Source: Lacibacter sp. H375
GTDB lineage: Bacteria > Bacteroidota > Bacteroidia > Chitinophagales > Chitinophagaceae
Assembly (NCBI RefSeq): GCF_037892425.1
Contig: NZ_JBBKTT010000001.1
Location: 3,472,001-3,536,000 of the forward strand
Direction: 5' to 3'
Length of the DNA stretch: 64,000 nucleotides
Shown: positions 4,032-54,305 of the stretch, one piece after another
How positions within the stretch are numbered: position 1 is the stretch's first letter
Layout of the letters: each line of letters opens with the position of its first letter
Position numbers and translations under genes: made by a program
Notes under the pieces: model-generated
Databases searched by the model: none
Seen by the model: only the letters and a program-made list of their open reading frames with translations
Told to the model about the DNA's origin: nothing

Positions 4032-4050
4032 TTGTTACAAGTCTTATTTC

Positions 4051-4511: not shown

Positions 4512-4512
4512 T

Positions 4513-5466: not shown

Positions 5467-5497
5467 CGAAATAACTTATAATAAAAAAAGTAAAATA

Positions 5498-20127: not shown

Positions 20128-20182
20128 CAAAACTATTTTCTTACGATTATAATCACGGCGACAATCAATTCATTAAAGGGGT
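20128..20182 (-). promoter_or_regulatory. PUL regulatory element and -7 box of the GH128-like gene
   Basis: On the minus strand ACCCCTTTAATGAA (20182 to 20169) is followed, after 33 bases, by TAGTTTTG (20135 to 20128), a perfect TAnnTTTG box. The element ends 73 bases before the start codon. Confidence 0.6.
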
Positions 20183-20352
20183 CGTTTTGTCTTAATTTGA
20201 ATTCGCTAAATGATGAATGATCGAGATGGTTAAGCACTTGTAGAATCATTCCGTACTTTTTCTTTTTTAATGATTGCCTTAGCTATGTTTTATCTTTTAA
20301 TTCAATCTGCTGTTGATTATTCGACAGTAGATTATGGCTTTGACACATTACT

Positions 20353-20407
20353 ACCTCTTTCATGAACTAACTGTTTCTTCAACCGATTGAATTCGGCTCT
20401 ATTTTTA
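20353..20407 (+). promoter_or_regulatory. PUL regulatory element and -7-like box of the acetylesterase gene
   Basis: ACCTCTTTCATGAA (20353-20366) is followed after 33 bases by TATTTTTA (20400-20407). The element ends 69 bases before the ATG at 20436. Confidence 0.55.
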
Positions 20408-20435
20408 GTTTTTAATGACGTTATCTTTAGTACAC

Positions 20436-21833: not shown

Positions 21834-21868
21834 TTATTATCCTCTTCTTGTTAGTTATTGAATAGAAT

Positions 21869-21925
21869 ACCCCCCTTTTTTGAAGGTATGCTTTCGGCTT
21901 TTTTAAGCAGTTACGATTAGCTTTA
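21869..21925 (+). promoter_or_regulatory. PUL regulatory element and -7-like box of the beta-helix/sulfatase operon
   Basis: ACCCCCCTTTTTTGAA (21869-21884) is the element with two extra C. TAGCTTTA (21918-21925) starts after exactly 33 bases. The ATG at 22006 is 121 bases beyond the element, farther than in the other units. A second TAGCTTTT lies at 21941-21948. Confidence 0.5.
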
Positions 21926-22005
21926 AGTAGTTAACGCAATTAGCTTTTAGAGATCTAAGCAAGCATCTTATCAATGTTGCCTTATAAGTTTTAATCATCA
22001 GTTCA

Positions 22006-23655
22006 ATGAAAATCAAAAAGATATTATCCTTAACATTTCTTGTCTGTTTTAGTTTTTCTTTAAAAGCTACAAATTATTATATCAACTCAGTAGTTGGAAA
22101 TGATGCAAATAAAGGAACAAGCTCAACTCATTCCTGGAAAACCGTTTCGCCGGTAAAGTTGATTCAATTAACCGCCGGCGATTCTATTCTTTTTGCGACA
22201 GGGCAAAAATTCACAGGGATGTTGGCGCTCATCAATATTAAAGGTGATGCGCAACATCCTGTGGTGGTAACAAGCTACCTGTATAAAGGAAATAAATCAA
22301 AACCTGTTTTAGATGCAGGTGAAGAATTAAATGCATTGTTGATCCAGAATTCTTCATTCATACATGTAAGTGGAATTGAATTTACAGGCATATTACCTTA
22401 TCAAAAAAGTACCACAGCTAACAAAACTGAAATGCGTTGCGGCATTCTTGTTGAAGTAACGAAAGATGAAGCATTTGAAAATATTAAGTTGAGCGGGGTA
22501 ATAGTTCATGATGTGTATTACAATCCTAAAGGGTTTACACGTTCAGCTGCTGAAATTAAAACAGCAAATGGTACGCAGAGTTATGGTTGGGGAATCCGTG
22601 TCATTAATAATACAAAGGCAGGGCGATTAATGAATATGAAGATTTTAAAATCTGAAGTATTCAACGTCAGTCATACAGGAGTGAAAGCTACCGGCAACAT
22701 TAACAGCATTCAACAATTGGAAATTGCTGAATGTAACGTTCACCAAACTGGTGGTCCGGGTATGCAGTTTTCGGGAGTTACAGACGGACATATTCATCAT
22801 AACAAAATTGATCATTCAGGTTCAACGGCAGATAGCAGAAACTGGGGTCGTGGCAGTGGTTTGTGGACATGGAGTTGCAGCAACATCCTCATTGAACACA
22901 ATCGCTTTGAAAATGCAAACGGCCCCGGCGATTCTGCAGGTGTACATATTGATTACAATTGCAGTGATGTAATAGTTCAGTATAATGTAAGTGCAAATAA
23001 TGCCGGCGGTTTCTGCGAAATTTTAGGTAACAACTACAATTGTGCATACCGTTATAACATCAGCGTCAATGATGGTTATAGAGTAAAAGGAATGAATGGT
23101 GCTTTTCAGGAAGGGAAAATTTTCTGGCTAAGCGGTTACCAGGGCGATCAAAAGAAAAATGCAGGCCCGTACAACAGCTACTTTTACAACAATACCATTT
23201 ATGTTGCAGCCAATATTATTCCAAAGATAGCAGTGAGCAGCAGTGCTGATGGAGTACTTATTGCAAACAACATCTTTTACTTTGAAACGGCTGCTCAAAT
23301 GGTGGCAGGTGATCAGAAGAAAAAAGAAGTGGATGTTGACGGTGTACCGAATGTTGTATTTACCAATAATCTTTTTTTACGTCCCGATAATTGGCCTTCG
23401 GAAATTCCATTACAAGATGCAACACCAATCATTGGCGATCCTTTGTTTAAAAACAAAGGTGGGGTATTAGTAAATGATTATTTGCCTGGAAATAAGAATC
23501 TGATTTTGAACAAGAGTATCACCGTTCAACCAATTCCAAAAGATACAATTGGTATTCGAATAGGGTTGCAAGTTGAGCATGATATTTTAGGTAATCCTAT
23601 TCAGGGAAAACCAGACATAGGCGCAATTGAATTGAGTGAGAATAAAAAGAAATAA
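22006..23655 (+). CDS. Right-handed parallel beta-helix protein, putative polysaccharide lyase or hydrolase
   Basis: A 549-residue exported protein with a signal peptide of about 22 residues. The mature part opens with YYINSVVGNDANKGTSSTHSWKTVSPV, the usual start of secreted pectate-lyase-like proteins, and continues as short repeated strands rich in Asn, Gly and His (for example HNRFENANGPGDSAG-like rungs). Such beta-helix proteins include pectate, alginate and other polysaccharide lyases and some hydrolases. I see no residues that fix the family. The stop overlaps the start region of the next gene by 20 bases, which indicates a shared transcript with the sulfatase. It is probably an accessory or backbone-cutting enzyme of the PUL. 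Confidence 0.75.
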   Translation: MKIKKILSLTFLVCFSFSLKATNYYINSVVGNDANKGTSSTHSWKTVSPVKLIQLTAGDSILFATGQKFTGMLALINIKGDAQHPVVVTSYLYKGNKSKPVLDAGEELNALLIQNSSFIHVSGIEFTGILPYQKSTTANKTEMRCGILVEVTKDEAFENIKLSGVIVHDVYYNPKGFTRSAAEIKTANGTQSYGWGIRVINNTKAGRLMNMKILKSEVFNVSHTGVKATGNINSIQQLEIAECNVHQTGGPGMQFSGVTDGHIHHNKIDHSGSTADSRNWGRGSGLWTWSCSNILIEHNRFENANGPGDSAGVHIDYNCSDVIVQYNVSANNAGGFCEILGNNYNCAYRYNISVNDGYRVKGMNGAFQEGKIFWLSGYQGDQKKNAGPYNSYFYNNTIYVAANIIPKIAVSSSADGVLIANNIFYFETAAQMVAGDQKKKEVDVDGVPNVVFTNNLFLRPDNWPSEIPLQDATPIIGDPLFKNKGGVLVNDYLPGNKNLILNKSITVQPIPKDTIGIRIGLQVEHDILGNPIQGKPDIGAIELSENKKK

Positions 23656-25111
23656 TTCTAAACAACATCCATTGAACAAAAGAAGAATTCAAACCGGAGT
23701 TATTGGTCTGTCCGCATGCATGCTGATTGTAACTGCATGGGCGTTTACAAAAAAATCAAAACAGGAAATTACAATCAACCAGGACAGGCCCAATGTCATT
23801 ATCATTCTTACCGATGATCAGGGTTATGCTGATGTTGGTTTTAATGGTTGTAAAGATATTCCAACACCAAACATCGATCGTATTGCAAAAAACGGTGTTG
23901 TGTTTACAAATGGTTATGTAAGTTATGCAGTATGTGCGCCAAGCCGTGCAGGTTTAATTACAGGCCGCTACCAGGATCGTTTTGGTTACAGCCGTAATCC
24001 GTTGTATAAACCATTTGATCCAACTATTGGTCTTCCTTTAACTGAACAAACATTACCGGAGCTGTTAAAGCAAAACGGTTACAATACAATGGGTATTGGT
24101 AAATGGCATTTAGGTGTGCATGAGAAATTCCGTCCATGGAACAGAGGCTTCAATGAGTTTTTTGGATTTCTTGGAGGAGGGCATCGTTATTTCCCGGAAG
24201 AATATAATATCACAAATCAGGATAGTGCAAAAAACGAAGGAGAAAGTTATCGCACCAAACTCATCCGTAAAGAAACCGTGATAGAAGAGAAAGAATATTT
24301 AACAGATGCACTGTCAAGAGAAGCTGTTTCATTTATTGAACGAAACAAGCAGCAACCATTCTTCCTCTACCTCGCTTATAATGCACCGCATTCGCCTTTG
24401 CAGGCCACTCCAAAATATTTGAGTCGCTTTGATCATATAAAAAATCCGAAGCGTAAAACCTATGCAGCAATGGTAAGTGCAGTAGATGATGGTGTTGGTG
24501 CAGTGTTGGACAAGTTGCAACAATTGAATCTTAGTGAAAATACCATTGTTATTTTTCTTTCAGACAATGGCGGACCTGAAACAGATAATGGCAGCGATAA
24601 TGGCCCGTTACGTGCAGGTAAGAGTTCTCTGTTTGAGGGCGGGATACGGGTTCCGTTTGCCATGCAATGGCCCAAACAGATAAAAGCAAACACGAAATAT
24701 GAGCAACCGGTTATTTCGTTAGACATTTTTGCTACAGTAGCAGCCAATATTGGCAAAATATCTGCACCGAAAAATGAATTGGATGGTGCAAACCTCTTGC
24801 CTTATATCAAAGGAGCAACAAAAGGTTCACCACATGAGTATCTGTTTTGGCGACAATTTGATCAAAAGAGCTATGCGGTACTTCATCAATCCGGGTTCAA
24901 ACAGGTAATTCTGAAAGATTCCAGTTTCAATTTGTATAATCTGAAAACTGACATTGAAGAAAAAGTCAATATCGACGATAAGAAAATGATGAGTGTCTTC
25001 GATCAGCAGCGAAAAAAATGGGAAGCCAATACCATTGCACCACTTTTTTATGGCTTGAACCAGGAACAGCTTTACGAACGGCAAAAGAAATCACAAGAGA
25101 AAAAGAATTAA
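23636..25111 (+). CDS. S1-type sulfatase
   Basis: A 491-residue sulfatase. A membrane-anchor-like signal near residues 20-35 suggests export. The metal ligands open as IILTDDQGY, and the formylglycine precursor is Cys100 in the motif CAPSRAGLITGRY, the CxPxR signature of type I sulfatases. DNGGPETDNG near residue 310 supplies further metal ligands. The C-terminal domain resembles N-acetylgalactosamine/iduronate-type sulfatases, but the substrate cannot be read. The frame starts with GTG at 23636, overlapping the beta-helix gene; a TTG at 23672 (NKRRIQTG) is an alternative start with a neater signal peptide. The Cys must be converted to formylglycine, presumably by the FGE encoded at 42522. 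Confidence 0.86.
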   Translation: MRIKRNNSKQHPLNKRRIQTGVIGLSACMLIVTAWAFTKKSKQEITINQDRPNVIIILTDDQGYADVGFNGCKDIPTPNIDRIAKNGVVFTNGYVSYAVCAPSRAGLITGRYQDRFGYSRNPLYKPFDPTIGLPLTEQTLPELLKQNGYNTMGIGKWHLGVHEKFRPWNRGFNEFFGFLGGGHRYFPEEYNITNQDSAKNEGESYRTKLIRKETVIEEKEYLTDALSREAVSFIERNKQQPFFLYLAYNAPHSPLQATPKYLSRFDHIKNPKRKTYAAMVSAVDDGVGAVLDKLQQLNLSENTIVIFLSDNGGPETDNGSDNGPLRAGKSSLFEGGIRVPFAMQWPKQIKANTKYEQPVISLDIFATVAANIGKISAPKNELDGANLLPYIKGATKGSPHEYLFWRQFDQKSYAVLHQSGFKQVILKDSSFNLYNLKTDIEEKVNIDDKKMMSVFDQQRKKWEANTIAPLFYGLNQEQLYERQKKSQEKKN

Positions 25112-25264
25112 CTTAATTGGATAGTGGTGCAGTTTAGGATATGATCCATTCATTATTCAAGAAAATTTGATAAGCAATTGAAAATGCGGGTACAAAACCC
25201 ATAGAAATTGGAAACTTTCGTGTAAGAAAACAGCCATTTCTAACCTGATAAATAGCACAATCGT

Positions 25265-25384
25265 ATGGTGACAAAACAAAAAAGTACAAATATTGAAAAG
25301 AATAATCATCGGATAAACATAAAACTTGCCGTAATCTATTTTCTGTTAGTGCTGCTGTTTATTTCACTGCTTGTATTTTTGTAG
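25265..25384 (+). CDS. Possible 39-residue single-pass membrane protein
   Basis: An ATG-started frame of 39 codons encodes a polar N-terminal part of 20 residues followed by a hydrophobic helix (LAVIYFLLVLLFISLLVFL) that ends at the stop. This layout is typical of small membrane proteins. It lies in the 361-base gap between a sulfatase and the hybrid sensor gene. No family is recognised and expression is unproven. It is too small to exclude chance. Confidence 0.35.
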   Translation: MVTKQKSTNIEKNNHRINIKLAVIYFLLVLLFISLLVFL

Positions 25385-25472
25385 CACTAAAGCAGTATGG
25401 GTTCAAATAACTTCAATAATCGTTGAATTCATCTAAATTGTAAGTTCGTATAACGATTAATTTAGAAACGCT

Positions 25473-28400
25473 TTGCCTTCCTCCACTAATAAATACGCTT
25501 GCCTGCTGCTTTTCATTGCTGTAACGTTTGCCGGTTACACGCAACAAGCCAATTCCTTTATCAGTATTACAGATGAACTGGTGAACAATGAAGTTACCTC
25601 CATCATTCAGGATAAAAATGGGTTTATCTGGCTTGGTACAAGAGGCGGATTGCAACGTTTTGATGGTTATGAAATGAAATTGCTCAAGAATGATTTCGGG
25701 AAAGGTGGTAACCTGTTAAGTCAATCAATTGAAGTATTGCAGAGTGGAAAGCAGAATAATATCTGGATCGGCACAAAGTCGGGCGGACTGAGTGAGTACA
25801 ATCTCAACAGCGGAAAAATAGCAAACTATCCAAACAACAATGCTAACAGCGCAGGATTTAATGCCGATTACATTCTTTCCATATTAGATACAGATAGTGA
25901 AAAGTTATTGATCGGCACCTGGAAAGGTTTTCAATACCTCAACAAGAAAACCGGTGAATTCAAAATTGTTAATAGTGTTTGGAAGACATTCGATATTCAG
26001 CCGGATGGTAATGCAGGTTACTGGCTGGCCACCAACAGCGGGCTGAAGCATATTAATCAGAATCTGGTCAACGATGTCTCTTACAACTTCGGAATTAACG
26101 GCGTTAACATTACGTCAATCGTAAACGATAAATCCAATAGTTGTCTGTGGCTTGGTAGCTGGAACGAAGGCTTGTTTCAATTTAATCTCACAACAAAAGA
26201 GTTTAAGAATTACCGGCATCAACAAAATAACGCCGCTTCAATAAGTTCAAACAACACCTATCGTATTTTGCTCGATTCGAAAGGTACATTATGGGTTGGA
26301 ACATGGGGTGGGGGCTTAAACCGCTTTGACCGCAACACAAACAGCTTTGAAAAAATCAGCTTAAATGTTCCGGGTATTTATACCAACGACAACCAGATTA
26401 TTTTAACCATGCAGGAAGATCCATCCGGTTTGTTATGGATTGGAACTGACGGTACCGGTGTTTTTAAATTTGATCTGAAACAAAAAAAGTTTTCGAACAT
26501 TGGCTATGAAAATAAATTGAATTCATTATTGGGAAGTACGCATGTGCTTTCGGTGTATGTAGATCCGTTCAATAAACTTTGGTTGGGAACAAAAGGTGGT
26601 GGTATACAATATTCAACAGATTGGAAGACATTTACTCAATTTAATATTGAAGACTCTGAAACAGGTAACCCTTCGGGGCTGCCCTATGTCAGCCGTTCTT
26701 TTTTGCAGGAGGGTGATTACTTGTGGGTTGGTACAAATAAAGGATTGATACGTATCCTGAATAAAGGACAAAAGCCATCAGCATATGATGTTTTTGAACC
26801 AGGGTTTGGGGGGGATGCCGGTTTCATCAGCGCAAGAAAGGCAACTCAAATTATAAAAGATTCTTCTGGTAGAATTTGGATTGGAACTCAGGAAAACGGG
26901 CTCAGCTATATTGCCGGTTTCGATAAAAAAAATCAACCAATATTTAAAAACTATATGCCGGCATATGGAGTAAAGGGCGCTTTGCAAAATGAACGGGTAA
27001 GTTGTTTATTGGTTGATTCGAAAAAACGATTATGGATAGGAACATATAAGGGACTCCATTTGTATCAACCATTAACGGATCAGTTCCAGGTATTTACTCA
27101 AACAGATGAATATGAAAACTCCATCAGCAACAATACTATTCTTTGTTTGGCCGAAGATAAATTTGGAAACATCTGGGCGGGCACGCAATATGGCTTGAAC
27201 AAAATTTCCGGTTATGATGGCAGTAAATTAAATGTAACGGGTTTTACAACCAAGGAAGGACTTCCCAGCGATTATATACATGCTGTTATTCCGGATAAAG
27301 AAGGAAACATTTGGGCAAGCACAAACAAAGGCATCGTTCGATTTAATCAATCAACAAAATCATTTGCTGTTTTTGACAAGCGTGATGGTGTTCAGTCAAT
27401 CGTTTTTTCTGAAAACGCATCCTGTAAAGATGCAAGCGGTCGTCTCTTCTTTGGTGGGTTGGAAGGCCTGACTTATTTTTTTCCTGACAGTATCAAGATC
27501 AATCAATTTTATCCGCCGATTTATTTTACCAACTTAACGGTGAATAATATTCCGTACGAATTTGGTACTGGAAAAGGAGATAGCTCTATTCTGAATAAAC
27601 CATTCTACAAAACAGAAACCATAACACTCAATCATAAAGAAAACATCTTCTCTATTGAATTTGCTGCGCTGGATTACCATGCACCGGATAAAAACGAGTA
27701 CATGTATAAGCTGGAAGGCTTTAATGAAGATTGGGTATATGCCGGCAATAAGCGCCTTGTTTCATTTACGAATTTGAAGCCAGGTACTTACCAGTTAAAA
27801 GTAAAAGCAACAAACAGTGATAAAACATGGAACCCGACTCCGCATGAATTAACGATAAAAATTCTGCCTCCACCATGGAAAACATGGTGGGCATACAGCA
27901 TCTATGTAACTGTTTTTATTTTTCTTCTTTGGTTAACACGGTATCTCGGGTTGCGACAGGTTGCACTAAAGAACCAATTAACACTCAGTAAGCTTGAACG
28001 GCAGCAGGAAAATAAACTAGCCGATTTTAAAGAGCGGTTATTTACAAATATCTCGCATGAGTTTCGAACACCGCTAACGCTCATCCTTGGCCCTCTCGAT
28101 GATCTGTTGCAACGGAAAAAGTTTGAAACGCAAGTTGAAAAGAGCCTGCGTCTGATTCAGAAGCAATCGAAGAGAATGTTGCGTATGGTTAATCAGTTGT
28201 TAGATTTTCAAAAAGCTGAAGCAGGAAGTTTAAAACTTTCACTGCAGCCGGGAGAGATTGTTTCATTTTGTCATGACATCTTTATTCTTTTTAATGATGA
28301 AGCAAGCAGAAGAAACATTGATTATACGTTTCACTCACAGGAAAAATATCTCTCATTTACATTCGATCACAATAAACTTGAGATCATCATATTTAATATT

Positions 28401-29573
28401 TTATCGAATGCATTTAAATTCACGCCTGTTGGGGGGCAGATTATATTCTACGTAAAGAAAAATGCAGATAAATCCTGTGAAATAAGCATTCGTGATAATG
28501 GAAGGGGAATTCCTGCCAATGAAATTGAAAAAATATTTGATCGCTTTTACAGGGGAAGGTCAGAAGATGCTACAACCATCTCCGGTACAGGAATCGGTCT
28601 TTCGTTTGTAAAAGAATTAACTGAACTGCACGGCGGAACGATCGTTGCTGAAAGTGATGGAACTCATGGAAGTTTGTTTACAGTAAAGTTGCCGCAGTCA
28701 AACGTTACTGAGTCGTTGTTGAATATTTCTGCAGAACCTTTGAATCATACCAGTCAAAACATTGAAACAACTTTAAATTCAGTTATTATGCCTGAAGAAA
28801 ATGATCAGATCAGTCAGGAACATGATCTTCCAATTATCCTTGTGGTGGAAGATGAATCTGATATGCTGCAGTACATCTACGAGATTTTATCTCCGTCGTT
28901 TAAGGTAGTAACAGCAACAAACGGCAGAGAGGGTATTGAAAAAGCATTTGAAACCATTCCTGATTTGATTGTAAGTGATGTAATGATGCCCGAAGTAGAT
29001 GGTATTGAGTTGTGTAAGAAGTTGAAGTCTGATAAAGACACATCGCATATTCCGATTATTCTGCTTACTGCATTGTCGGATTTGGCGCATCATGTACAAG
29101 GTATTCGTGAAGGAGCCGATGTGTATTTGCCCAAGCCGTTCAACTCACAGTTATTGCTGGTACATATTCATAACCTCATTAACTCAAGAAATACGCTGAA
29201 AGAATTTTATGCCAAACGCATTTTTCTCGGTACCGGAAATTTTGAAATAAAAACCTTTGAAGAGGAGTTTTTGGTAAAGCTGATGAAGCTGGTGGAAGAA
29301 AATATTTCGAACAGTAATTTTAATAACGATGATCTGGCTACGCTCATGTTTATGAGCCGATCAACGTTTTACCGGAAATTAAAAGCAGTAACTGGTATGT
29401 CGGGTAATGAGTTCATCCGAACCGCTCGGTTAAATTACGCAGCCAAACTATTAGAAAGCGGTAACTATTCAGTAACTGAGGCTGCATATGAAGCAGGGTT
29501 TAACGATATCAAGTATTTCAGAAAGCGTTTCCAGGAACAGTTTACCGTTTCTCCATCGGAATACAAAAAATAA
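25473..29573 (+). CDS. Hybrid two-component system sensor/regulator (HTCS) of the PUL
   Basis: A 1366-residue one-protein two-component system. A signal peptide of about 22 residues is followed by periplasmic beta-propeller repeats (repeated WLGTRGGLQRF-like and IWIGT units, to about residue 680), a Y_Y_Y domain and a membrane helix near 805-825. The cytoplasmic part has HisKA with the phosphorylated His862 in SHEFRTP, an HATPase with GRGIPA and GTGIGLSF, a receiver with Asp1169 in VSDVMMPEVDG, and an AraC-type HTH (about 1265-1366) ending SPSEYKK. It senses released oligosaccharide and activates PUL genes. The only start that keeps the signal peptide is TTG at 25473, because an in-frame stop lies 12 bases upstream. 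It probably binds the shared element described in this window. Confidence 0.93.
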   Translation: MPSSTNKYACLLLFIAVTFAGYTQQANSFISITDELVNNEVTSIIQDKNGFIWLGTRGGLQRFDGYEMKLLKNDFGKGGNLLSQSIEVLQSGKQNNIWIGTKSGGLSEYNLNSGKIANYPNNNANSAGFNADYILSILDTDSEKLLIGTWKGFQYLNKKTGEFKIVNSVWKTFDIQPDGNAGYWLATNSGLKHINQNLVNDVSYNFGINGVNITSIVNDKSNSCLWLGSWNEGLFQFNLTTKEFKNYRHQQNNAASISSNNTYRILLDSKGTLWVGTWGGGLNRFDRNTNSFEKISLNVPGIYTNDNQIILTMQEDPSGLLWIGTDGTGVFKFDLKQKKFSNIGYENKLNSLLGSTHVLSVYVDPFNKLWLGTKGGGIQYSTDWKTFTQFNIEDSETGNPSGLPYVSRSFLQEGDYLWVGTNKGLIRILNKGQKPSAYDVFEPGFGGDAGFISARKATQIIKDSSGRIWIGTQENGLSYIAGFDKKNQPIFKNYMPAYGVKGALQNERVSCLLVDSKKRLWIGTYKGLHLYQPLTDQFQVFTQTDEYENSISNNTILCLAEDKFGNIWAGTQYGLNKISGYDGSKLNVTGFTTKEGLPSDYIHAVIPDKEGNIWASTNKGIVRFNQSTKSFAVFDKRDGVQSIVFSENASCKDASGRLFFGGLEGLTYFFPDSIKINQFYPPIYFTNLTVNNIPYEFGTGKGDSSILNKPFYKTETITLNHKENIFSIEFAALDYHAPDKNEYMYKLEGFNEDWVYAGNKRLVSFTNLKPGTYQLKVKATNSDKTWNPTPHELTIKILPPPWKTWWAYSIYVTVFIFLLWLTRYLGLRQVALKNQLTLSKLERQQENKLADFKERLFTNISHEFRTPLTLILGPLDDLLQRKKFETQVEKSLRLIQKQSKRMLRMVNQLLDFQKAEAGSLKLSLQPGEIVSFCHDIFILFNDEASRRNIDYTFHSQEKYLSFTFDHNKLEIIIFNILSNAFKFTPVGGQIIFYVKKNADKSCEISIRDNGRGIPANEIEKIFDRFYRGRSEDATTISGTGIGLSFVKELTELHGGTIVAESDGTHGSLFTVKLPQSNVTESLLNISAEPLNHTSQNIETTLNSVIMPEENDQISQEHDLPIILVVEDESDMLQYIYEILSPSFKVVTATNGREGIEKAFETIPDLIVSDVMMPEVDGIELCKKLKSDKDTSHIPIILLTALSDLAHHVQGIREGADVYLPKPFNSQLLLVHIHNLINSRNTLKEFYAKRIFLGTGNFEIKTFEEEFLVKLMKLVEENISNSNFNNDDLATLMFMSRSTFYRKLKAVTGMSGNEFIRTARLNYAAKLLESGNYSVTEAAYEAGFNDIKYFRKRFQEQFTVSPSEYKK

Positions 29574-29608
29574 ACTGCCGGTTGTGTTTGCTGAAGTTGA
29601 TAAAAACT

Positions 29609-30511: not shown

Positions 30512-30715
30512 TTTTCATTTATTCAGTGAAGCCCTAAAATAGCGAACTTCTGTATGTGGTGTTCAATGCTTTCAGGCTTGGTACAAATAACACCCATTTT
30601 AGACGCATATGTTGCCTTCAAAAGAAAACATTCAGAATAAGTTTACCGACGTAAAGCTTCTTCAAAAAAAGAAGCCCCATTATTCAAATTACAAGATTAA
30701 TCATCAGTAGTTAAC

Positions 30716-32992: not shown

Positions 32993-33001
32993 GCGTTCAA
33001 C

Positions 33002-35044: not shown

Positions 35045-35091
35045 ATGCTAACGAAGTCAGTTAATGGGTTTAAAAACAGTAGTTGTTAAAA

Positions 35092-36501: not shown

Positions 36502-36827
36502 GTAGATAAGTACAGCGCCGAATAATTGAATCAGGTAGAATCGAAATATTTATTTTATGATTGGAGTTGAATGTACTTCTACACATTTGTAATACATGAT
36601 GATACATTTTTAGCCCGCTAACCAGATCTTACAAAAGGGTAATGAAAGCCCACCAATAGAGGTTTTCAGACTTGGTTTAATATTTTTTGAATAGCAACAA
36701 TAAAAACTTTTATCGTTGTTAAATGCTACATCAGCACCCCTTTTTTGAATGAAAAGGTTAATTTGCTTGCGATAATTTAGCTTTCATGTAGAGGTGAGCC
36801 TGCCTCAAAATAATTTAAATAGAAAAA
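36502..36827. other. Intergenic promoter region of the sulfatase operon
   Basis: This 326-base gap contains no coding sequence or hairpin that I recognise. It carries the shared PUL element at 36736-36749 and two imperfect -7-like boxes: TAATTTAG (36773-36780) and TAGCTTTC (36778-36785). Confidence 0.5.
36736..36785 (+). promoter_or_regulatory. PUL regulatory element of the sulfatase/GH2/FGE/GH29 operon
   Basis: ACCCCTTTTTTGAA (36736-36749) matches the shared element and ends 78 bases before the ATG at 36828. Candidate -7 boxes are TAATTTAG after 23 bases and TAGCTTTC after 28 bases, so the 33-base spacing of the other units is not kept here. Confidence 0.5.
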
Positions 36828-38360
36828 ATGATCAAACGATTCTTGCTTGGACTACTTGTCCTGTCAGTTAGCATTTCTTTGCATGGCCAAATAACAAAAA
36901 ATAAAAAGCCAAATATCATTTTAATTTATACCGATGATCTTGGTTATGGAGATCTTGGTTGTTACGGTGCCACAGCTATTGCAACACCTAATATGGATGC
37001 ACTTGCAAAAAGCGGGGCAAGATTTACCAATGCACATGCAACGTCTGCTACCTGCACACCATCACGTTTTTCATTGCTTACAGGAAAGTATGCATGGCGC
37101 AAAGAAGGTACAGGTATTGCTCCCGGTGATGCATCGTTGATCATTCCTGTTACAGGAACAACATTGCCTGGTATGTTACAAAAAGCAGGATACAATACAG
37201 CAGTGATTGGTAAGTGGCATCTTGGATTGGGTGATGGAAAAGGTATTGACTGGAACGACAAAATAAAACCCGGCCCTGCAGAGATTGGATTTAATTATTC
37301 ATTCCTGATTCCTGCAACCGGCGACAGAGTTCCCTGTGTATTTGTAGAAAATCAACAGGTAGTTAATCTCGATAAAAATGATCCGATAAAAGTTAGTTAC
37401 ACAGGGCCAGTTGATCCAAATGCACCTACCGGCAAAAAGAACCCGGAGCTGTTGAAAATGCAACCGTCGCACGGGCATGATATGACGATTGTAAATGGTG
37501 TGAGCCGTATTGGATATATGACTGGTGGTACATCAGCTCTTTGGAAAGATGAAGATTTTGCCGATGTGCTGGTGCAAAAAGCAAATGCTTATATCAGCAA
37601 TCAAAAAAACAATCCTTTCTTTTTATATTTTGCTACGCATGATATTCATGTGCCACGTCTTGCGCATTCACGGTTTGCTGGAAAGAGTGGCATGGGGCCG
37701 AGAGGCGATGTGTTACTGCAATTAGACTGGACAGTTGGTGAAATTATTTCTATTCTTAAAAAGAATAACCTCCTTGAAAATACACTCATCATTTTTTCAA
37801 GCGATAACGGGCATGTGGTTGATGATGGTTATAAAGATGACGCTGTTGAAAAATTAGGCAATCACAAACCAGGCGGAATTTATCGTGGCGGAAAGTACAG
37901 TGCGTTTGAAGCAGGTACAAGAGTGCCGTTTATTGTTAGCTGGAAAGGAAAAGTAAAACCGGGCACAACCAATAACGCATTGTTCAGCCAGATAGATCTT
38001 TATGCTTCGCTGGCAAAACTTGCAGGAGCAAAAGTTGAAGCAGGGCAGGCGCCTGATAGTAAAAACTATTTACCTGTATTGCTCAATCAAACAAATAAGC
38101 CCCGTGAGTTTTTGGTAGAGCAATCAATTAACTCAACACTATCATTGCTGGTTGGCAACTGGAAATATATTGAACCTTCAAAAGGTCCAAAGGTGAATAA
38201 GGATACCAATACCGAACTGGGCAATTTGCCTGAGCCGCAACTATACAATTTGGCTAATGACCCAAGTGAAACAAAAAATCTTGCTGCTGTTCATCCCGAT
38301 AAAGTGAAAGAAATGCAGGCATTGCTGATGAAAATTAAACAAGGCAGTACTGTAAAATAA
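36828..38360 (+). CDS. S1-type sulfatase (arylsulfatase-like)
   Basis: A 510-residue sulfatase with an N-terminal signal peptide of about 20 residues ending LHGQ. The metal ligands open as IYTDDLGYGDLGCYGA, and the formylglycine precursor is Cys76 in CTPSRFSLLTGKY, a full CxPxR signature. Further metal ligands are in the segment SDNGHVVDDG. The pattern is closest to arylsulfatase A-like enzymes, whose bacterial members remove 4-O- or 6-O-sulfate from galactose or N-acetylgalactosamine units; this remains an inference. It is the first gene of a unit of two sulfatases, GH2, FGE and GH29, with the shared element 78 bases upstream. Confidence 0.88.
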   Translation: MIKRFLLGLLVLSVSISLHGQITKNKKPNIILIYTDDLGYGDLGCYGATAIATPNMDALAKSGARFTNAHATSATCTPSRFSLLTGKYAWRKEGTGIAPGDASLIIPVTGTTLPGMLQKAGYNTAVIGKWHLGLGDGKGIDWNDKIKPGPAEIGFNYSFLIPATGDRVPCVFVENQQVVNLDKNDPIKVSYTGPVDPNAPTGKKNPELLKMQPSHGHDMTIVNGVSRIGYMTGGTSALWKDEDFADVLVQKANAYISNQKNNPFFLYFATHDIHVPRLAHSRFAGKSGMGPRGDVLLQLDWTVGEIISILKKNNLLENTLIIFSSDNGHVVDDGYKDDAVEKLGNHKPGGIYRGGKYSAFEAGTRVPFIVSWKGKVKPGTTNNALFSQIDLYASLAKLAGAKVEAGQAPDSKNYLPVLLNQTNKPREFLVEQSINSTLSLLVGNWKYIEPSKGPKVNKDTNTELGNLPEPQLYNLANDPSETKNLAAVHPDKVKEMQALLMKIKQGSTVK

Positions 38361-38402
38361 CAGTTTGGTTCTTCTGATAATTCAACTTCCAATCACAAAA
38401 TC

Positions 38403-39905
38403 ATGATAATACATACTTCACTAAAATATTTGTTTGTTACTGTTTGGAGTATGGCTATAATAGTGACTGCAGAAGCGCAACAGAATAAGAGCAAACCCAA
38501 CATCATTGTTATACTTGCTGATGATCTGGGCTGGAAAGATCTTTCATGTTATGGAAGTACGTTTTATGAAACGCCGAATCTTGATGCGTTGGCAGCAAAA
38601 GGTGCAAAGTTTACCAACAATTACACCACAAGTCCTGTTTGCAGTCCCACCCGTTCAAGCATCATGACAGGGAAAAATCCAATCAATACAAAAGTTACTG
38701 ACTGGATCAAAGGAAGGCAGGAAAACGGAAATGCAAAACCATTTGAAAAATTAATTACACCGGCTACGGCATTTGAATTATCCCTCAATGAAAATACAAT
38801 TGCAGAACATGCATTAAAAAACGGCTATCAAACATTCTTTGCCGGTAAATGGCATTTAGGTGAAGAAGAGAAACACTGGCCATTGAATCACGGTTTTCAA
38901 ACGAATAAGGGCGGATGGAGTAAAGGTGGCCCAACAGGAAAAATAAATGACAGCACCGGTGGTTATTTCACTCCTTACGGCAATCCAACATTAACTGATG
39001 GCCCGGCAGGAGAATATATTACTGACCGGCTTGCAAACGAGTGCATCAGTTTTATTCAAAAAGAAAAGCAATCGCCTTTTTTCCTGATGTATTCTTTATA
39101 CGCCGTGCACAATCCTTTGCAGGCGCCTGCAGCATTGATTAAAAAGTATAAAGAAAAACAGCAACGGCTTGGTTATACTGACAAAGACCGATTCATTAAA
39201 AATGAAGAATGGATGAAGAATCAAACTGATTGGAAACAGCGTTTGGTTCAGGACCATGCCGTTTATGCTGCAATGATTGAAAACATGGATTGGAACATTG
39301 GTCGCATTATTCAATCGTTGAAAGAAAAAGGATTGCTTGAAAATACATTGATCATTTTTACATCAGACAATGGTGGATTGAGTACGGCAGAAGGAAGTCC
39401 CACCACCAATATTCCGTTGAGAGCAGGTAAAGGCTGGTTGTATGAAGGCGGAATAAGAGTGCCGATGGTTATGTATTGGAAAAATAAACTGCAGCAAGGC
39501 ATTGTTTCAGATTTACCCGTTAACACATCTGATATTTTTTCTACTGTTGTAACAGCCATCAACAAAACCTACAAGAAAGAAACTGCTGTTGAAGGAGAAG
39601 ATATTTTAAAGCTCTTATCAAATCAAAAGAAAACAGCAGACAGAGCATTGTACTGGTATTATCCGCATTACAGTAACCAGGGCGGTAAACCAGGTGCGGC
39701 TATCAGAAAAGGAAAATATAAACTCATCTATAATTACGAAGATGACAGTATTGAATTGTACGATCTTTCAGTTGATGTGAGTGAAAAGAAAAACCTGGCT
39801 ACTCAAAATGTTCAGGTAGCAAAGCAATTGAAGAAACAACTCGATTTATGGCTTGCAAACAATAAGGCCGGTGGCTTTAAGCCCAATCCGGGATATAAGC
39901 AATAA
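38403..39905 (+). CDS. S1-type sulfatase
   Basis: A 500-residue sulfatase with a signal peptide of about 22 residues ending TAEAQ. Metal ligands appear in VILADDLGWKDLSCYG and SDNGGLSTAEG. The formylglycine precursor is Cys80 in CSPTRSSIMTGKNP, a CxPTR variant of the CxPSR signature that remains compatible with conversion. FAGKWHLGEEEKHWP is the usual lysine/histidine substrate-site stretch. The sequence differs clearly from the two other sulfatases, so the three probably act on different sulfate positions or sugars. It starts 42 bases after the preceding sulfatase gene and 15 bases before the GH2 gene. Confidence 0.88.
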   Translation: MIIHTSLKYLFVTVWSMAIIVTAEAQQNKSKPNIIVILADDLGWKDLSCYGSTFYETPNLDALAAKGAKFTNNYTTSPVCSPTRSSIMTGKNPINTKVTDWIKGRQENGNAKPFEKLITPATAFELSLNENTIAEHALKNGYQTFFAGKWHLGEEEKHWPLNHGFQTNKGGWSKGGPTGKINDSTGGYFTPYGNPTLTDGPAGEYITDRLANECISFIQKEKQSPFFLMYSLYAVHNPLQAPAALIKKYKEKQQRLGYTDKDRFIKNEEWMKNQTDWKQRLVQDHAVYAAMIENMDWNIGRIIQSLKEKGLLENTLIIFTSDNGGLSTAEGSPTTNIPLRAGKGWLYEGGIRVPMVMYWKNKLQQGIVSDLPVNTSDIFSTVVTAINKTYKKETAVEGEDILKLLSNQKKTADRALYWYYPHYSNQGGKPGAAIRKGKYKLIYNYEDDSIELYDLSVDVSEKKNLATQNVQVAKQLKKQLDLWLANNKAGGFKPNPGYKQ

Positions 39906-39920
39906 TCAAAAAATAAAATT

Positions 39921-42410
39921 ATGTTCAGCAACAGATTCATATATAAAAGCTCACTTCTTTTCGCAAGTTTACTATTTGTGAGTGTTTCTCTTATGGCTCA
40001 AAGTTCATTGAGAAAACGGCTTTCGTTTAATGAAGGATGGCTCTTTAAGAAAACAACAGATTCTGCTGCAGCTCAAACTCAATACAAAGATTCAGACTGG
40101 AGAAAGTTATCGTTGCCACACGACTGGGCCATTGAAGGGCCATTCAAACCAGAATATAATCCACGTACAGGCGGACTTCCCATTTTTGATAAAGCATGGT
40201 ATCGTAAGCGTTTCAAAATAGATGCATCAGCAAAAGGAAAAATTGTTACACTTGAGTTTGATGGTATTATGTATAACTCATCTGTTTACGTTAATGGTCA
40301 GAAAGTATATGATCGACCTTATGGCTACAGCAGTTTTGAAATTGATATAACACCCTACATTCAATACGGCAGTGAAAATGTGATTGCCGTAAAACTAAGT
40401 CCACAGGAATTATCTGCAAGGTGGTACTCCGGTGCAGGCATCTACAGAAATGTATGGATGGAAATAAAAAATCCTGTGCATGTAAAACATTGGGGAAATC
40501 ATATCACTACACCTGTTGTTACAAAAGATAATGCAAAGGTGAAAGTGGAAACAATGATTTCCAGCAAGCAAAAAACTCATGCTGGGAACTATCAGATCAA
40601 AACAATTATTGTAGATGCAAATGGGTCAGAAGTTGCAACTGCAATGAATAAATTCAACTTTACTGCAAGTGAAGCAACAACTTTTCAGGAGCTGGAAGTA
40701 AATAATCCGAAGTTGTGGGATATGGAAACGCCGCATCTCTACAAAACAATTTCAACTATTTATAAAAACAATATTGCTGTTGATACTTATGTTGAAACAT
40801 TCGGCATACGTACCATTCAATACACAAGAGAAGGATTCTTTTTAAACGGAAGAAAGGTAAAAATGAAAGGTGTTTGTTTGCATAATGACCTGGGTGCATT
40901 GGGTGCAGCTGTTAACTACAGAGCTACAGAACGTCAGTTGCAAATCATGAAAGAAATGGGTGTGAATGCGATCCGTACATCACACAATCCTGCATCGCCT
41001 GAGCAATTGGATCTATGTGATAAGATGGGACTTTTAGTACAGGAAGAAGCATTTGATTGTTGGGAAATGCCTAAAGTTGAAAATGATTACAGTAAGTATT
41101 GGGCGCAATGGCATGAACAGGATCTGCGTGATATGATTCGTCGTGACAGAAACAGGCCATCGATTGTTATGTGGAGTATTGGTAACGAAATAAGAGAACA
41201 AAATAAAGAAGATGGTTATCTCATTGCCCGATCACTTGCAAAGATTTGTAAAGAAGAAGATCCCAACAGACCAACGACTGCAGGGTTCAACAATTTTGCT
41301 GCAGCCATTAAAAACGGACTTGCTGCTGAAATAGATTTAGTGGGCGCCAACTATAAACCGACAGACTATGCACCAACGATGAAACAATACCAGGATTGGA
41401 TCGTTTACGGATCGGAAACAGCATCATGCGTATCATCAAGAGGTGTTTATCATTTACCATTGGAAAAATATGATAAGCATCCATCATTGCAGGTAAGCAG
41501 TTATGATAATCAAAGTCCAAGCTGGGCTTATCCACCCGATGTTGAATTTCATTTCCAGGATTCTTTGCCTAATGTGATTGGTGAGTTTGTATGGACTGGT
41601 TTTGATTATTTAGGTGAGCCAACGCCTTATGGTGGAAAAGATAATCTTACACATGGTAATTGGGATGTTGATTGGCCATCGAGAAGTTCTTATTTCGGTG
41701 CAGTGGATCTGGCAGGTTTTCCGAAAGATCGCTTTTATTTATACCAAAGCCGCTGGACAACTGAACCAATGGTTCATCTCTTACCACATTGGAATTGGGA
41801 AGGAAGCGACATCACAGAAATTCCTGTTTACTGTTATACTAATTGTGATGAAGCGGAATTATTTGTAAATGGTAAATCGTATGGAAGAAAAAAAATTGGA
41901 GTAGACAAAACCAGTATTCCTGTTTCCTTTTTTGCATGGAAAAACAGACCAAAATATTTCGAATCGCCCTACCGACTTAACTGGAATGTACCATTTGAAA
42001 AAGGGGAAATAAAAGTGGTCGCCTACAAGAATGGAAAACAAGCGGCTACAAAAACTATCAAGACAGCAAAGAATCCAAACCAAATTAAGTTAATACCCGA
42101 TAGGAAAGTGATTTATGCAGATGGAGATGATTTATCATTTGTAACTGTTAGAATTGAAGATGAGAATGGCAACTTCTGTCCACTTGCAGATAATAGAGTT
42201 GACTTTAAGATATCAGGACCTGCAACGATAGCTGCAGTTGATAATGGAAACGCTGCTTCTACCGAACCATTCCAGGCTAATTACCGCAAAGCGTTTAACG
42301 GCTTATGTTTATTGGTAATTAAAAGTAAAAAGGGAGCAGCAGGAGTTGTTAAAATTGAAGCTTCATCACCGGGATTAAAAACTTCAGTTATTACCGTTGT
42401 TACAAAATAG
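39921..42410 (+). CDS. GH2 beta-galactosidase-like protein with DUF4982 domain
   Basis: An 829-residue exported exo-glycosidase with a signal peptide of about 26 residues. The N-terminal jelly roll and Ig-like domain (LPHDWAIEGPFKPE, ARWYSGAGIYRNVW) are followed by the GH2 barrel. Glu423 in WSIGNEIRE is the likely acid/base and Glu499 in YGSETASC the likely nucleophile. A DUF4982-type domain (EAELFVNGKSYGRKK) and another Ig-like domain close the protein, as in Bacteroidota beta-galactosidases. It belongs to the sulfatase operon and is a candidate for releasing galactose after desulfation. It shares little with the GH2 enzyme at 33002. Confidence 0.88.
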   Translation: MFSNRFIYKSSLLFASLLFVSVSLMAQSSLRKRLSFNEGWLFKKTTDSAAAQTQYKDSDWRKLSLPHDWAIEGPFKPEYNPRTGGLPIFDKAWYRKRFKIDASAKGKIVTLEFDGIMYNSSVYVNGQKVYDRPYGYSSFEIDITPYIQYGSENVIAVKLSPQELSARWYSGAGIYRNVWMEIKNPVHVKHWGNHITTPVVTKDNAKVKVETMISSKQKTHAGNYQIKTIIVDANGSEVATAMNKFNFTASEATTFQELEVNNPKLWDMETPHLYKTISTIYKNNIAVDTYVETFGIRTIQYTREGFFLNGRKVKMKGVCLHNDLGALGAAVNYRATERQLQIMKEMGVNAIRTSHNPASPEQLDLCDKMGLLVQEEAFDCWEMPKVENDYSKYWAQWHEQDLRDMIRRDRNRPSIVMWSIGNEIREQNKEDGYLIARSLAKICKEEDPNRPTTAGFNNFAAAIKNGLAAEIDLVGANYKPTDYAPTMKQYQDWIVYGSETASCVSSRGVYHLPLEKYDKHPSLQVSSYDNQSPSWAYPPDVEFHFQDSLPNVIGEFVWTGFDYLGEPTPYGGKDNLTHGNWDVDWPSRSSYFGAVDLAGFPKDRFYLYQSRWTTEPMVHLLPHWNWEGSDITEIPVYCYTNCDEAELFVNGKSYGRKKIGVDKTSIPVSFFAWKNRPKYFESPYRLNWNVPFEKGEIKVVAYKNGKQAATKTIKTAKNPNQIKLIPDRKVIYADGDDLSFVTVRIEDENGNFCPLADNRVDFKISGPATIAAVDNGNAASTEPFQANYRKAFNGLCLLVIKSKKGAAGVVKIEASSPGLKTSVITVVTK

Positions 42411-42521
42411 CAAGAGCATCACCCATTAAGTATATCAGCTAAATAAAAATTACTGACTTAAGAAATTCAAAATTGCTCAGGTTGTACGACCTTAGTGCTT
42501 ATTCGGAAAAAAACAATTGAT

Positions 42522-43679
42522 ATGCTGTTGTCATTTTTAGTGAGGAGATGTAAAATTTGTTTCTATTCAAAAAGAAGCCTGCCTTTTGCGATAATATTGT
42601 TTTTGGGTTCCTGTAATAATTCAAATGACTCAGCACAGAATCAAAAACAGGATTCAGCTCATACCTGTATGGCCGTTCCATCAAGGTTTGGTGCAGACAC
42701 CTCTTCATCATCTATTGGTTTTAATGGCGATACCACTACTGCAGGAATGGTATTTATCCCCGGAGGAAGTTTTGAAATGGGAGCTGATAATGAACAGGCA
42801 TCAGAAGATGAGTATCCAAAACACAAAGTAACGGTTGATGCATTTTACATGGATGTTACAGAAGTTACCAATGCCCAGTTCCAAAAATTTGTTGATGCTA
42901 CTGGATATATTACCACTGCAGAACGTAAACCCGATTGGGAAGAATTAAAAAAGACAGTGCCACCCGGTACAGCAAAACCAGCCGATAGTTTATTGGTAGC
43001 AGCATCGTTGGTATTTAAGCCGAGTAATGGGCCAGTTGATCTCAATAATTATTCGCAATGGTGGAGTTGGGTGGCAGGTGCAGATTGGAAACATCCTGAA
43101 GGACCTAACAGCAGTATTAAAGGAAAAGAAAATTTTCCTGTTGTGCACGTTAGTTGGGACGATGCAATGGCTTACTGCAAGTGGGCAGGTAAACGTTTGC
43201 CAACAGAAGCAGAGTGGGAGTATGCTGCAAGAGGTGGTTTGAACAATAATATTTATCCGTGGGGAAATGAACATGTAAACATTGGTGCAGCAAAAACAAA
43301 TAGTTGGGAAGGAAAGTTTCCTTACTCAAATGAACAACGTGATGGATTTATAAAGTACGCTCCGGTAAAAACATACAACTGTAACAAGTATGGTTTGTTT
43401 GATGTGGCAGGAAATGTGTGGGAGTGGTGCAGTGATTGGTATGATCATAACTATTACAAATCAGTAGCTAGCAATACTGTTGTAAATCCAAACGGTCCGC
43501 AAAAAAGTTTCGATCCGCAAGATCCTTATACACCAAAACGTGTATTACGTGGCGGAAGTTTTCTCTGCAACGACAGTTACTGCAGCGGTTACCGTGTTGC
43601 AAGAAGAATGAAAAGCAGTCCTGATACTGGATTGGAACATACAGGTTTCAGGTGTGTGAAGGATGTTGCTAAAAAATAA
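42522..43679 (+). CDS. Formylglycine-generating enzyme (FGE/SUMF1 family), lipoprotein
   Basis: A 385-residue protein that converts the sulfatase CxPxR cysteine to formylglycine using oxygen. The FGE domain runs from about residue 75 (MVFIPGGSFEMGADN) to the end. Both active-site cysteines of true FGEs are present: Cys349 and Cys354 in GGSFLCNDSYC, five residues apart, as in human SUMF1 (CHRSYC). The N-terminus holds a hydrophobic segment ending in the lipobox LGSC, so the enzyme is probably a periplasm-facing lipoprotein, unusual because bacterial FGEs normally act in the cytosol. I chose the ATG at 42522; a GTG at 42495 would extend it by nine residues. It lies between GH2 and GH29 in the sulfatase operon and probably serves all three sulfatases here. 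Confidence 0.87.
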   Translation: MLLSFLVRRCKICFYSKRSLPFAIILFLGSCNNSNDSAQNQKQDSAHTCMAVPSRFGADTSSSSIGFNGDTTTAGMVFIPGGSFEMGADNEQASEDEYPKHKVTVDAFYMDVTEVTNAQFQKFVDATGYITTAERKPDWEELKKTVPPGTAKPADSLLVAASLVFKPSNGPVDLNNYSQWWSWVAGADWKHPEGPNSSIKGKENFPVVHVSWDDAMAYCKWAGKRLPTEAEWEYAARGGLNNNIYPWGNEHVNIGAAKTNSWEGKFPYSNEQRDGFIKYAPVKTYNCNKYGLFDVAGNVWEWCSDWYDHNYYKSVASNTVVNPNGPQKSFDPQDPYTPKRVLRGGSFLCNDSYCSGYRVARRMKSSPDTGLEHTGFRCVKDVAKK

Positions 43680-43762
43680 GAGATACATTACTATATTTTC
43701 ATAGTGCCATAAGAACTAAAATATTTCTTAGTAGACCTAAACGGGTTCTCAATAACTATTTC

Positions 43763-45265
43763 ATGAGTTTAAAAATAAAGTATCAACGTGCAATTGTCTT
43801 TTTTGCATTTGCAATAGCCTGTATTCATTCCACAGCACAAATACTACAACCGTCCACTAAACCAAACGCTGCACAAAAGGAATTGATCAAACGTGGCTAT
43901 GGTATGTTCATTCATTTTGGCGTTAATACATTTACTGACCTTGAATGGTCAGATGGTACTACACCTGCAACTGCATACAATCCAACTAACCTTGATCCTG
44001 ATCAATGGGTGCGTACTGCAAAAGAAGCGGGCTTCCGTTATGTGTTGCTGATTACAAAACACCACGATGGTTTTTGTTTATGGGATAGCAAGTACACTGA
44101 ATATGATGTGGCTTCTTCTCCGGTTAAAACAGATGTAGTGAAAGCAGTTGCGGATGCCTGCAAAAAATACGGTTTGCAGTTTGCAATTTATTATTCGCTC
44201 TGGGACAGACATGAAGCTTCTTTTAATGACAAAAACCCGCAAGTATATATCGACTATATGCTCAATCAATTGAAAGAACTGTTCACCAACTATGGTTCTA
44301 TTTGTGAGTTGTGGCTCGATGGCGGTTGGAAAAGAAGCCCTTCTGATTGGGGCATAGATCAGGTATATAAATTAGTGAAACAGTATAACCCCAAGTGTGC
44401 CGTAAGCGTTAATCATACGATCGTAAATGAAGAAGGCAAACGGAAATTTACATTGCCATCTTTAATGACAGAAGACAATAAATATTTCTTTCATTATTTC
44501 CCAAGCGATTTCAGATTATGGGATCCGAAGATCATTACCAAATTTGACAAAAAGCAATATCTGCACGAAGGGAAATCGTATTACCTTCCTTATGAACATA
44601 CCATTTGTCTCAGCAGTCGCTGGAACTGGTTCCAAAAATCAGCACAGCTTCCGGTAAGAGAGTTAGATGAACTGCAGGAATTATTTTACTGGTGTACTGA
44701 TAATGATAATTCACTGGTGATAAATGTTCCTCCTGATAAAACCGGCAGGATACGGGAATACGAAGCACTTGCTGTCATTGAATTAGGAAAGCGATTAGGC
44801 TTATCTGCAAACAAACCATTGCCGAAGAATGGTAAATTTATTTCGTTGCTAAAACCAGCTGCTGCAACAAGCGAGTTTGTTGACAAAGACATTACCTACA
44901 AAGCAGCATTTGTAAACGACGGAAGTCTTGACAGCCGATGGCTTGCCATTGATACGTTGGCTGAATTGACAATTGATCTGAATCCTGCTGAAGCATTTAA
45001 TAAGATCAGTATTTTTGAATATCAAGACACCCGAAATTTACCCGATGGATTTTCACAACTAAGAACCGGTAGAATAAAAGAATATAGCATTGATATTTTA
45101 CAGAAAGGACAATGGCAAACAATTTACTTAGGTACTGAGCCCATGGGTGATTGTAAAGTGATCATGCTGCCACGAAACTGTAAGACAACTAAGTTGCGGT
45201 TGAAGATACTAAAAGCAACAGCGCCTCCTTCTTTGTATGAATTATCTGTGATAAACATGCAGTAA
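43763..45265 (+). CDS. GH29 alpha-L-fucosidase
   Basis: A 500-residue exported exo-fucosidase with a signal peptide of about 24 residues. The GH29 opening GMFIHFGVNTFTDLEWSDGT and LLITKHHDGFCLWDS form the substrate pocket, and Asp186 in ELWLDGGWKR is the nucleophile. The C-terminal 150 residues resemble a discoidin (F5/8 type C) carbohydrate-binding domain. GH29 enzymes release terminal alpha-L-fucose, so the PUL substrate probably carries fucose. It is the last gene of the sulfatase operon. A weak, long intergenic region then separates it from susC. Confidence 0.88.
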   Translation: MSLKIKYQRAIVFFAFAIACIHSTAQILQPSTKPNAAQKELIKRGYGMFIHFGVNTFTDLEWSDGTTPATAYNPTNLDPDQWVRTAKEAGFRYVLLITKHHDGFCLWDSKYTEYDVASSPVKTDVVKAVADACKKYGLQFAIYYSLWDRHEASFNDKNPQVYIDYMLNQLKELFTNYGSICELWLDGGWKRSPSDWGIDQVYKLVKQYNPKCAVSVNHTIVNEEGKRKFTLPSLMTEDNKYFFHYFPSDFRLWDPKIITKFDKKQYLHEGKSYYLPYEHTICLSSRWNWFQKSAQLPVRELDELQELFYWCTDNDNSLVINVPPDKTGRIREYEALAVIELGKRLGLSANKPLPKNGKFISLLKPAAATSEFVDKDITYKAAFVNDGSLDSRWLAIDTLAELTIDLNPAEAFNKISIFEYQDTRNLPDGFSQLRTGRIKEYSIDILQKGQWQTIYLGTEPMGDCKVIMLPRNCKTTKLRLKILKATAPPSLYELSVINMQ

Positions 45266-45565
45266 ATGATTCTGCTGTAATTAAAAAAACCAAGAACATG
45301 AATAGCTGTATCATTTCTTTATAGTATGATTGATTCTTATATAAAACTCTCCTGAACAATAACTGTTATTGTTTGTTTAATTTGTTCAAAGCAATTGATA
45401 ATAGAAAGTAGAACATTTTTACAAAACAAGCCTCCTGTTTCAAACACTGCCCGTTAACACTCATGAACTGAATGCACCTCTTTTTTGAAGCGCTTGGCCA
45501 CCAGGCAAGTGAAATATAGTTGCTTACTTAGTTGTGTAATTCTAAATCAAACTAAAACTGAAACG
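45266..45565. other. Upstream region of susC with PUL element
   Basis: The 300-base region between GH29 and susC has no convincing gene. An in-frame TTG-started extension of susC from 45485 runs through it, but I prefer the ATG at 45566. It contains the shared PUL element at 45476-45489 and a second copy of CATGAACT-like sequence at 45462-45469. Confidence 0.5.
45476..45522 (+). promoter_or_regulatory. PUL regulatory element of susC/susD/GH128
   Basis: ACCTCTTTTTTGAA (45476-45489) matches the shared element and ends 76 bases before the ATG at 45566. The nearest -7-like box is TATAGTTG (45515-45522), after 25 bases and with one mismatch to TAnnTTTG. The upstream CATGAACT resembles the core of the element at 20353. 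Confidence 0.5.
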
Positions 45566-52049: not shown

Positions 52050-52057
52050 TATCTTTG
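52050..52057 (+). promoter_or_regulatory. Candidate -7 box of the imuA-imuB-dnaE2 cassette
   Basis: TATCTTTG fits TAnnTTTG exactly and ends 6 bases before the ATG at 52064, so the transcript could be nearly leaderless. No known SOS (LexA) box was recognised nearby. Confidence 0.45.
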
Positions 52058-52063
52058 TTTCAA

Positions 52064-52792: not shown

Positions 52793-52793
52793 G

Positions 52794-54293: not shown

Positions 54294-54305
54294 AAATTTA
54301 GAAGT

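Follow-up and report, generated by a model that had tools for sequence, protein, structure and literature searches.

Hybrid two-component systems (HTCSs) control many polysaccharide gene clusters of Bacteroidota, and few HTCS operators are known. In a stretch of 64,000 nucleotides from Lacibacter sp. H375 (contig NZ_JBBKTT010000001.1, positions 3,472,001 to 3,536,000; hereafter the window), a 14-base element recurs before units of a polysaccharide utilization locus (PUL) that also encodes one HTCS, at 25473-29573. This raises the question of whether the element is the operator of that protein, as an initial annotation had proposed for its AraC-type domain. In this study, we found that the element lies within a longer putative operator, present at five places and probably at a sixth. 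All of these sites very probably serve this HTCS as operators.

The 14-base element and the held-out profile

The exact element, ACCYCTTTNWTGAA, occurs in operators 1, 2, 4 and 5 of the following list, in which GH stands for glycoside hydrolase, FGE for formylglycine-generating enzyme and MFS for major facilitator superfamily. Scores in bits are those of the held-out profile described below.

20157-20195, minus strand: operator 1, core 20169-20182; before the GH-cc gene 13643-20095; exact 14-mer; 18.4 bits
20340-20378, plus strand: operator 2, core 20353-20366; before an acetylesterase-like gene; exact 14-mer; 18.6 bits
21858-21896, plus strand: operator 3, core 21871-21884; before beta-helix and sulfatase genes, 22006-25111; one mismatch; 25.6 bits
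36723-36761, plus strand: operator 4, core 36736-36749; before the sulfatase-sulfatase-GH2-FGE-fucosidase unit 36828-45265; exact 14-mer; 23.3 bits
45463-45501, plus strand: operator 5, core 45476-45489; before susC (ATG 45566), susD and a GH-cc gene; exact 14-mer; 27.2 bits
30578-30616, plus strand: operator 6, weak and probable, core 30591-30604; before the FAD oxidoreductase-GH2-MFS unit 30716-36501

The five coordinates given by the initial annotation were all correct, as were its distances from core to start codon (73, 69, 121, 78 and 76 bases for operators 1, 2, 3, 4 and 5). The two extra C that it had placed in the copy at 21869-21884 are not needed, as a copy at 21871-21884 with a single mismatch (A to C) fits.

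The 14-mer by itself proves nothing. With at most one mismatch it occurs 33+31 times in the 5.08-Mb home genome, against 30+31 for the reversed control, and with at most two mismatches it occurs 11 times in the window, against a chance mean of 10.3. Only the exact class is unusual: four of the five exact copies in the genome are in the cluster, and the fifth lies within a cyclophilin-like open reading frame (ORF). Because the one-mismatch class is at chance level, the 14-mer alone is no proof.

Since the consensus of the 14-mer came from the sites themselves, a profile that had not seen these sites was the fair test. Eleven genomes contributed 28 sites to an alignment with weights set per unit, and the held-out profile was trained on the 23 sites from other genomes. 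It was run on the home genome, where 150 of 3154 first-look candidates were scored. The five sites took the top five places (27.2, 25.6, 23.3, 18.6 and 18.4 bits), followed by a sixth match at 15.5 bits. Matches 6-9 lie in open frames, and match 10 resembles a terminator hairpin. The many equal intergenic matches against which the initial annotation had warned did not appear, as none comparable was found outside the cluster among the candidates scored. When one unit at a time was left out of training, each home site ranked fifth of 127,924 window positions, with the other four sites above it. When the whole home genome was left out, the five sites scored 28.4-32.5 and the next place 11.6. The signal is therefore common to promoters that are not homologous.

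The operator as a direct repeat

The full operator spans about 39 bases and consists of two half-sites, each TTGA...CC, that form a direct repeat with a period of 22 bases. Conservation extends beyond the core on both sides, to a TTGA 13 to 10 bases ahead of the 14-mer and a CC at positions 25-26, and the 14-mer as the entire operator is ruled out for this reason. By this alignment it is the middle of the predicted operator, where ACC at the end of half-site 1 meets TTGAA at the beginning of half-site 2. Half-site 2 is weakly specified. When the profile was compared with itself as a direct repeat at shifts of 15-32, self-similarity peaked at a shift of 22 (3.35, with -5.2 for the next shift), a value reached by none of 5000 permutations. 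The same self-similarity analysis gave no signal for an inverted repeat.

Spacing between the operator and the -7-type box

Each operator is followed by a box or conserved block at a defined distance from its core.

20128-20135, minus strand: box TAGTTTTG, -7-type, 33 bases past the core of operator 1
20400-20407, plus strand: box TATTTTTA, -7-type, 33 bases past the core of operator 2
21918-21925, plus strand: box TAGCTTTA, -7-type, 33 bases past the core of operator 3
30638-30645, plus strand: box TAAGTTTA, -7-type, 33 bases past the core of operator 6
36773-36780, plus strand: box TAATTTAG, -7-type, 23 bases past the core of operator 4
45524-45531, plus strand: block TTACTTAG, conserved, 34 bases past the core of operator 5; likely the -7 box, off consensus

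The initial annotation had noticed TAnnTTTR exactly 33 bases after the core at three of the five sites. This was borne out, and a triple at any common spacing arose in one of 20,000 shuffle sets. For the last two units it had placed the boxes at 23-28 bases. That holds for the sulfatase unit, at 23, and not for susC, where a box at 23-28 was dropped in favour of the best conserved block, at 34.

The spacing was counted at 41 hand-picked sites from 13 genomes. TAnnTT stood at 33 in 20 of them, all among the 22 sites that belong to units other than susC and sulfatase. It stood at 23, one helical turn less, in eight, which are all eight sulfatase-unit sites. The stricter TAnnTTTR was at 33 in 18 of the 41, and the boxes of the sulfatase and susC units were looser; the -7 consensus used for comparison was TAnnTTTG, that of the main promoter of Bacteroidota. 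Eight of the 11 susC sites carried KTAYTTAG at 34; the remaining three, from a distant group, carried GAANATTG at the same distance. A threshold-based set of 18 matches of at least 15 bits, none used in training, had TAnnTT at 33 or 23 in 12 cases, compared to about 0.3 expected from other offsets. The threshold search also recovered, at 20.3 bits and with TAnnTT at 34, a site before a GH-cc gene in genome G012 that had been left out of the profile for poor alignment.

Co-occurrence of the operator with the HTCS

The proposed binder and its DNA-binding region are encoded as follows.

25473-29573, plus strand: HTCS of 1366 amino acids, proposed binder, with sensor propeller, kinase, receiver and AraC-type DNA-binding domain
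29181-29570, plus strand: DNA-binding region of the HTCS, with helix SRSTFYRKLK

As is typical of an HTCS, a single chain combines the periplasmic sensor propeller with the kinase, the receiver and the AraC-type domain; Pfam detects Reg_prop, Y_Y_Y, HisKA, HATPase_c, Response_reg and HTH_18. The histidine motif of the kinase, HEFRTPL, is present, as is the SHIP part of the S/CHIP-DK motif, at residue 1191. In Bacteroides, this motif goes with inhibition relieved by phosphorylation (PMC11253607). The DNA-binding part is related to the solved HTCS chain 12aw.

Orthologs of this HTCS were found in genomes G003 (91% identity), G013 (87%), G009 (84%), G012 (80%), G352 (79%), G260 (74%), G001 (73%), G017 (67%), G182 (64%), G058 (47%), G169 (47%) and G360 (46%), and a partial ortholog in L083. 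An operator precedes susC in all 12 ortholog genomes whose susC region was examined (home genome included), down to an HTCS identity of 46%. In G012, the cluster is split, and the profile match on another contig is the susC operator. The recognition helix SRSTFYRKLK is identical in 13 of 13 aligned orthologs and in none of 18 other HTCSs aligned. Within the genus, all six ortholog genomes have matches at E <= 1e-4, and the best match among the eight genomes without an ortholog is 0.0144. In the family sample, nine of 12 ortholog genomes have a match at the cluster at E <= 0.01, and 47 of the 394 genomes have a match at this threshold.

Across genera, the operator, the orthologous HTCS and the identical recognition helix occur together, which supports the AraC-domain reading of the initial annotation. 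A direct-repeat layout of about two helical turns, as predicted for Bacteroides HTCSs (PMC3878776), points the same way. The sites share further features with predicted HTCS operators of the direct-repeat type: the repeat is of the type with a period of about 21 bp, the copies lie before units of the PUL that includes the HTCS gene, and they are conserved before orthologous genes. The 14-mer had marked candidate operators at the right places, though it covers only their middle and missed the probable one at 30591.

In two ortholog genomes, weak operator-like sites in reverse orientation were also seen before GH-cc genes, one in G169 (region 16550, minus strand, 14.5 bits) and one in G058 (region 12374, plus strand, 12.8 bits).

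A probable sixth operator, and units without one

Operator and box were also scored jointly, with training that excluded the home genome. Position 30591 (plus strand) came sixth in the window by this score, at 21.4, compared to 15.1 for the next place. In G012, the orthologous gene is preceded by a close match, likewise with TAAGTTTA at 33. Counted from the first TTG through the core, the two sites agree at 24 of 27 bases, and in the spacer at 22 of 33. Scored without its box, operator 6 reaches only 11.3 and is seventh in the window, which counts against it. We therefore regard an operator at 30591, before the FAD oxidoreductase unit, as probable and not certain.

The initial annotation had listed this unit, GH16 and the HTCS as lacking a clear copy. 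That stands for the last two, before which no operator was found in the home genome window; the FAD oxidoreductase unit has its probable weak copy. Autoregulation of the HTCS was considered and rejected, since the home genome has no operator ahead of the HTCS gene. In G012, an operator site lies about 415 bases ahead of the HTCS start; it is perhaps a remnant of a unit lost there. GH16 and the HTCS gene very probably lie outside the regulon.

In G003, the FAD oxidoreductase-GH2-MFS module lies directly behind a site of the operator 2 type, and in the home genome behind the weak site at 30591. This module has moved within the cluster.

Weighing the assignment to the HTCS

Several observations weigh against the assignment. 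The signal is weak outside the 14-mer, and the flanks alone rank the five sites from 195 to 5733. A box at 33 or 23 is missing from six of the 18 independent matches, and neither the susC block nor the sulfatase-unit box follows the -7 consensus. Five of the six positive genomes of the genus had supplied sites to the profile. Among the 12 ortholog genomes of the family, G058, G360 and G260 have no match at the cluster at E <= 0.01; in G260, the sole match is inside an ORF. Matches at the same threshold occur in 37 of the 382 family genomes without an ortholog, above what the E-value leads one to expect. The profile alone is insufficiently specific at E <= 0.01. Of 21 match loci examined (one from G260, where the ortholog is present, and the rest from genomes without it), 12 lie under an open frame of at least 143 codons and nine do not. 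We take the matches in genomes without an ortholog as mostly chance.

The sites could be real activator sites of another regulator, such as a further protein of the AraC type or a global regulator of sugar use; we consider this improbable. Binding by this particular HTCS is deduced from the sequences, and 25 additional matches to its DNA-binding region exist elsewhere in the home genome; both points leave room for another protein. However, a global regulator should have sites elsewhere, and none of comparable score was seen among the 150 scored of the 3154 candidates. The HTCS is the only regulator in the cluster by Pfam, and every genome that has the operator cluster also carries this HTCS. 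In addition, none of the 20 other home-genome domains that were judged has the helix SRSTFYRKLK of this HTCS; the remaining five of the 25 were not judgeable.

We give much less weight to the idea that the element belongs to the promoter proper, as an extension read by an alternative sigma factor, without the HTCS. A fixed distance to the -7-type box would fit such an element, but the half-sites lie about 34 to 72 bases ahead of the start, which is far for sigma contact, spacings of 23 and 33 both occur, and the box keeps its usual TAnnTT form. Least credible of all is chance, by which a T-rich pattern was picked after the fact. The chance-level frequency of the 14-mer with one mismatch speaks for it; the held-out ranking, the leave-one-unit-out recovery and the spacing at independent sites contradict it. 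Control by the HTCS encoded in the cluster is thus the explanation we prefer.

Proposed mechanism of activation

Under control by the HTCS, binding of an oligosaccharide to the sensor domain would lead the protein to phosphorylate its own receiver domain. Phosphorylation would free two AraC-type DNA-binding domains, and in the phosphorylated dimer these may occupy a single DNA face with two helical turns between them. The -7 box has been placed at -12 to -5 (PMC9723704), so the near half-site would cover about -50 to -34 and occupy the place of the weak -33 promoter element. There, the HTCS may touch RNA polymerase in a class II-like manner. Such a contact would explain both the fixed spacing and the shift by one helical turn in the exceptional unit.

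Gene content of the cluster

The cluster contains susC/susD, three sulfatases with an FGE protein, two GH2, GH16, two GH-cc, a fucosidase-like enzyme and the one HTCS. Its likely substrate is a sulfated polysaccharide. The listed ORF of susC starts at TTG 45485, inside operator 5. The real start is likely ATG 45566, whose position and sequence are kept in relatives. For the acetylesterase-like gene, the probable start is ATG 20436, 69 bases past the core of operator 2. Between two divergent genes, operators 1 and 2 are arranged back to back (20157-20378), with 170 bases separating their cores. Elsewhere in the window, at 52055-57524, an ORF without Pfam match is followed by Y-family polymerase-like and DnaE-like ORFs, an arrangement which we take to resemble an ImuA-ImuB-DnaE2 cassette.

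A possible wider rule

HTCS promoters of this bacterial family might follow a general rule, in which a 22-base direct repeat has its near half-site in place of the -33 element, 33 bases (or one turn closer) before the -7 box. We hold this rule only tentatively and think it rather doubtful. In a trial on 20 regions of other HTCS clusters, four ortholog groups were aligned and a clear 22-base repeat was seen in one of the four. The E and F alignments of other HTCS clusters gave nothing, partly from badly placed start codons. One other HTCS cluster of the home genome (L273, L280 and L289) shows CACCC repeats 22 apart ahead of susC in three genomes; this is a distinct operator that shares the period. 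Two of the three top matches in genomes without this HTCS, L294 (G410) and L295 (G325), lie in other susC clusters; by eye, these show ACCCC/TCCCC repeats 22 apart. If the rule is true, regulons of unstudied HTCSs would be readable from sequence alone. The present case offers a regulon that is small and close to complete, together with an exact operator and a geometric prediction, namely one DNA face and promoter-adjacent activation. It also offers a route by which targets could be assigned to other HTCSs.

Comparison with known systems

For 16 HTCSs of B. thetaiotaomicron, earlier work predicted direct-repeat motifs with a mean distance of 21 bp (Ravcheev et al. 2013, PMC3878776). The operators proposed here resemble them in having two conserved sites in direct repeat, 22 bases apart here, and in standing before PUL units; there, too, footprinting was used, and a dimer on one face was proposed. 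The sequence is different, and the bacterial family here is Chitinophagaceae. For the present sites, the -7-type box was measured to lie at a fixed distance, whereas no such distance was found for the operators of PMC3878776 in the parts of that paper available to us. SusR operators are also direct repeats before PUL genes, but their tandem sites are spaced 67 or 77 bp (PMC3878776), compared to a period of 22 here among the shifts of 15-32 examined.

No HTCS operator for Chitinophagaceae was found in the literature searched. No stated fixed distance between an HTCS operator and the -7 box was found either, in the parts of the sources available; Figure S3 of PMC5061871 marks both and may show a similar spacing. 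HTCS fragments of B. thetaiotaomicron shift PUL promoters in gel shifts (PMC5061871, PMC11253607). Among them, a receiver and DNA-binding fragment of BT0366, the arabinan HTCS, did so (PMC5061871), which is a likeness to the binding proposed here; the evidence is experimental there and comes from sequence here. As far as the available parts of these sources extend, the new parts of the present analysis are the sharp spacing and the near-complete regulon, while direct-repeat HTCS operators had already been predicted in 2013.

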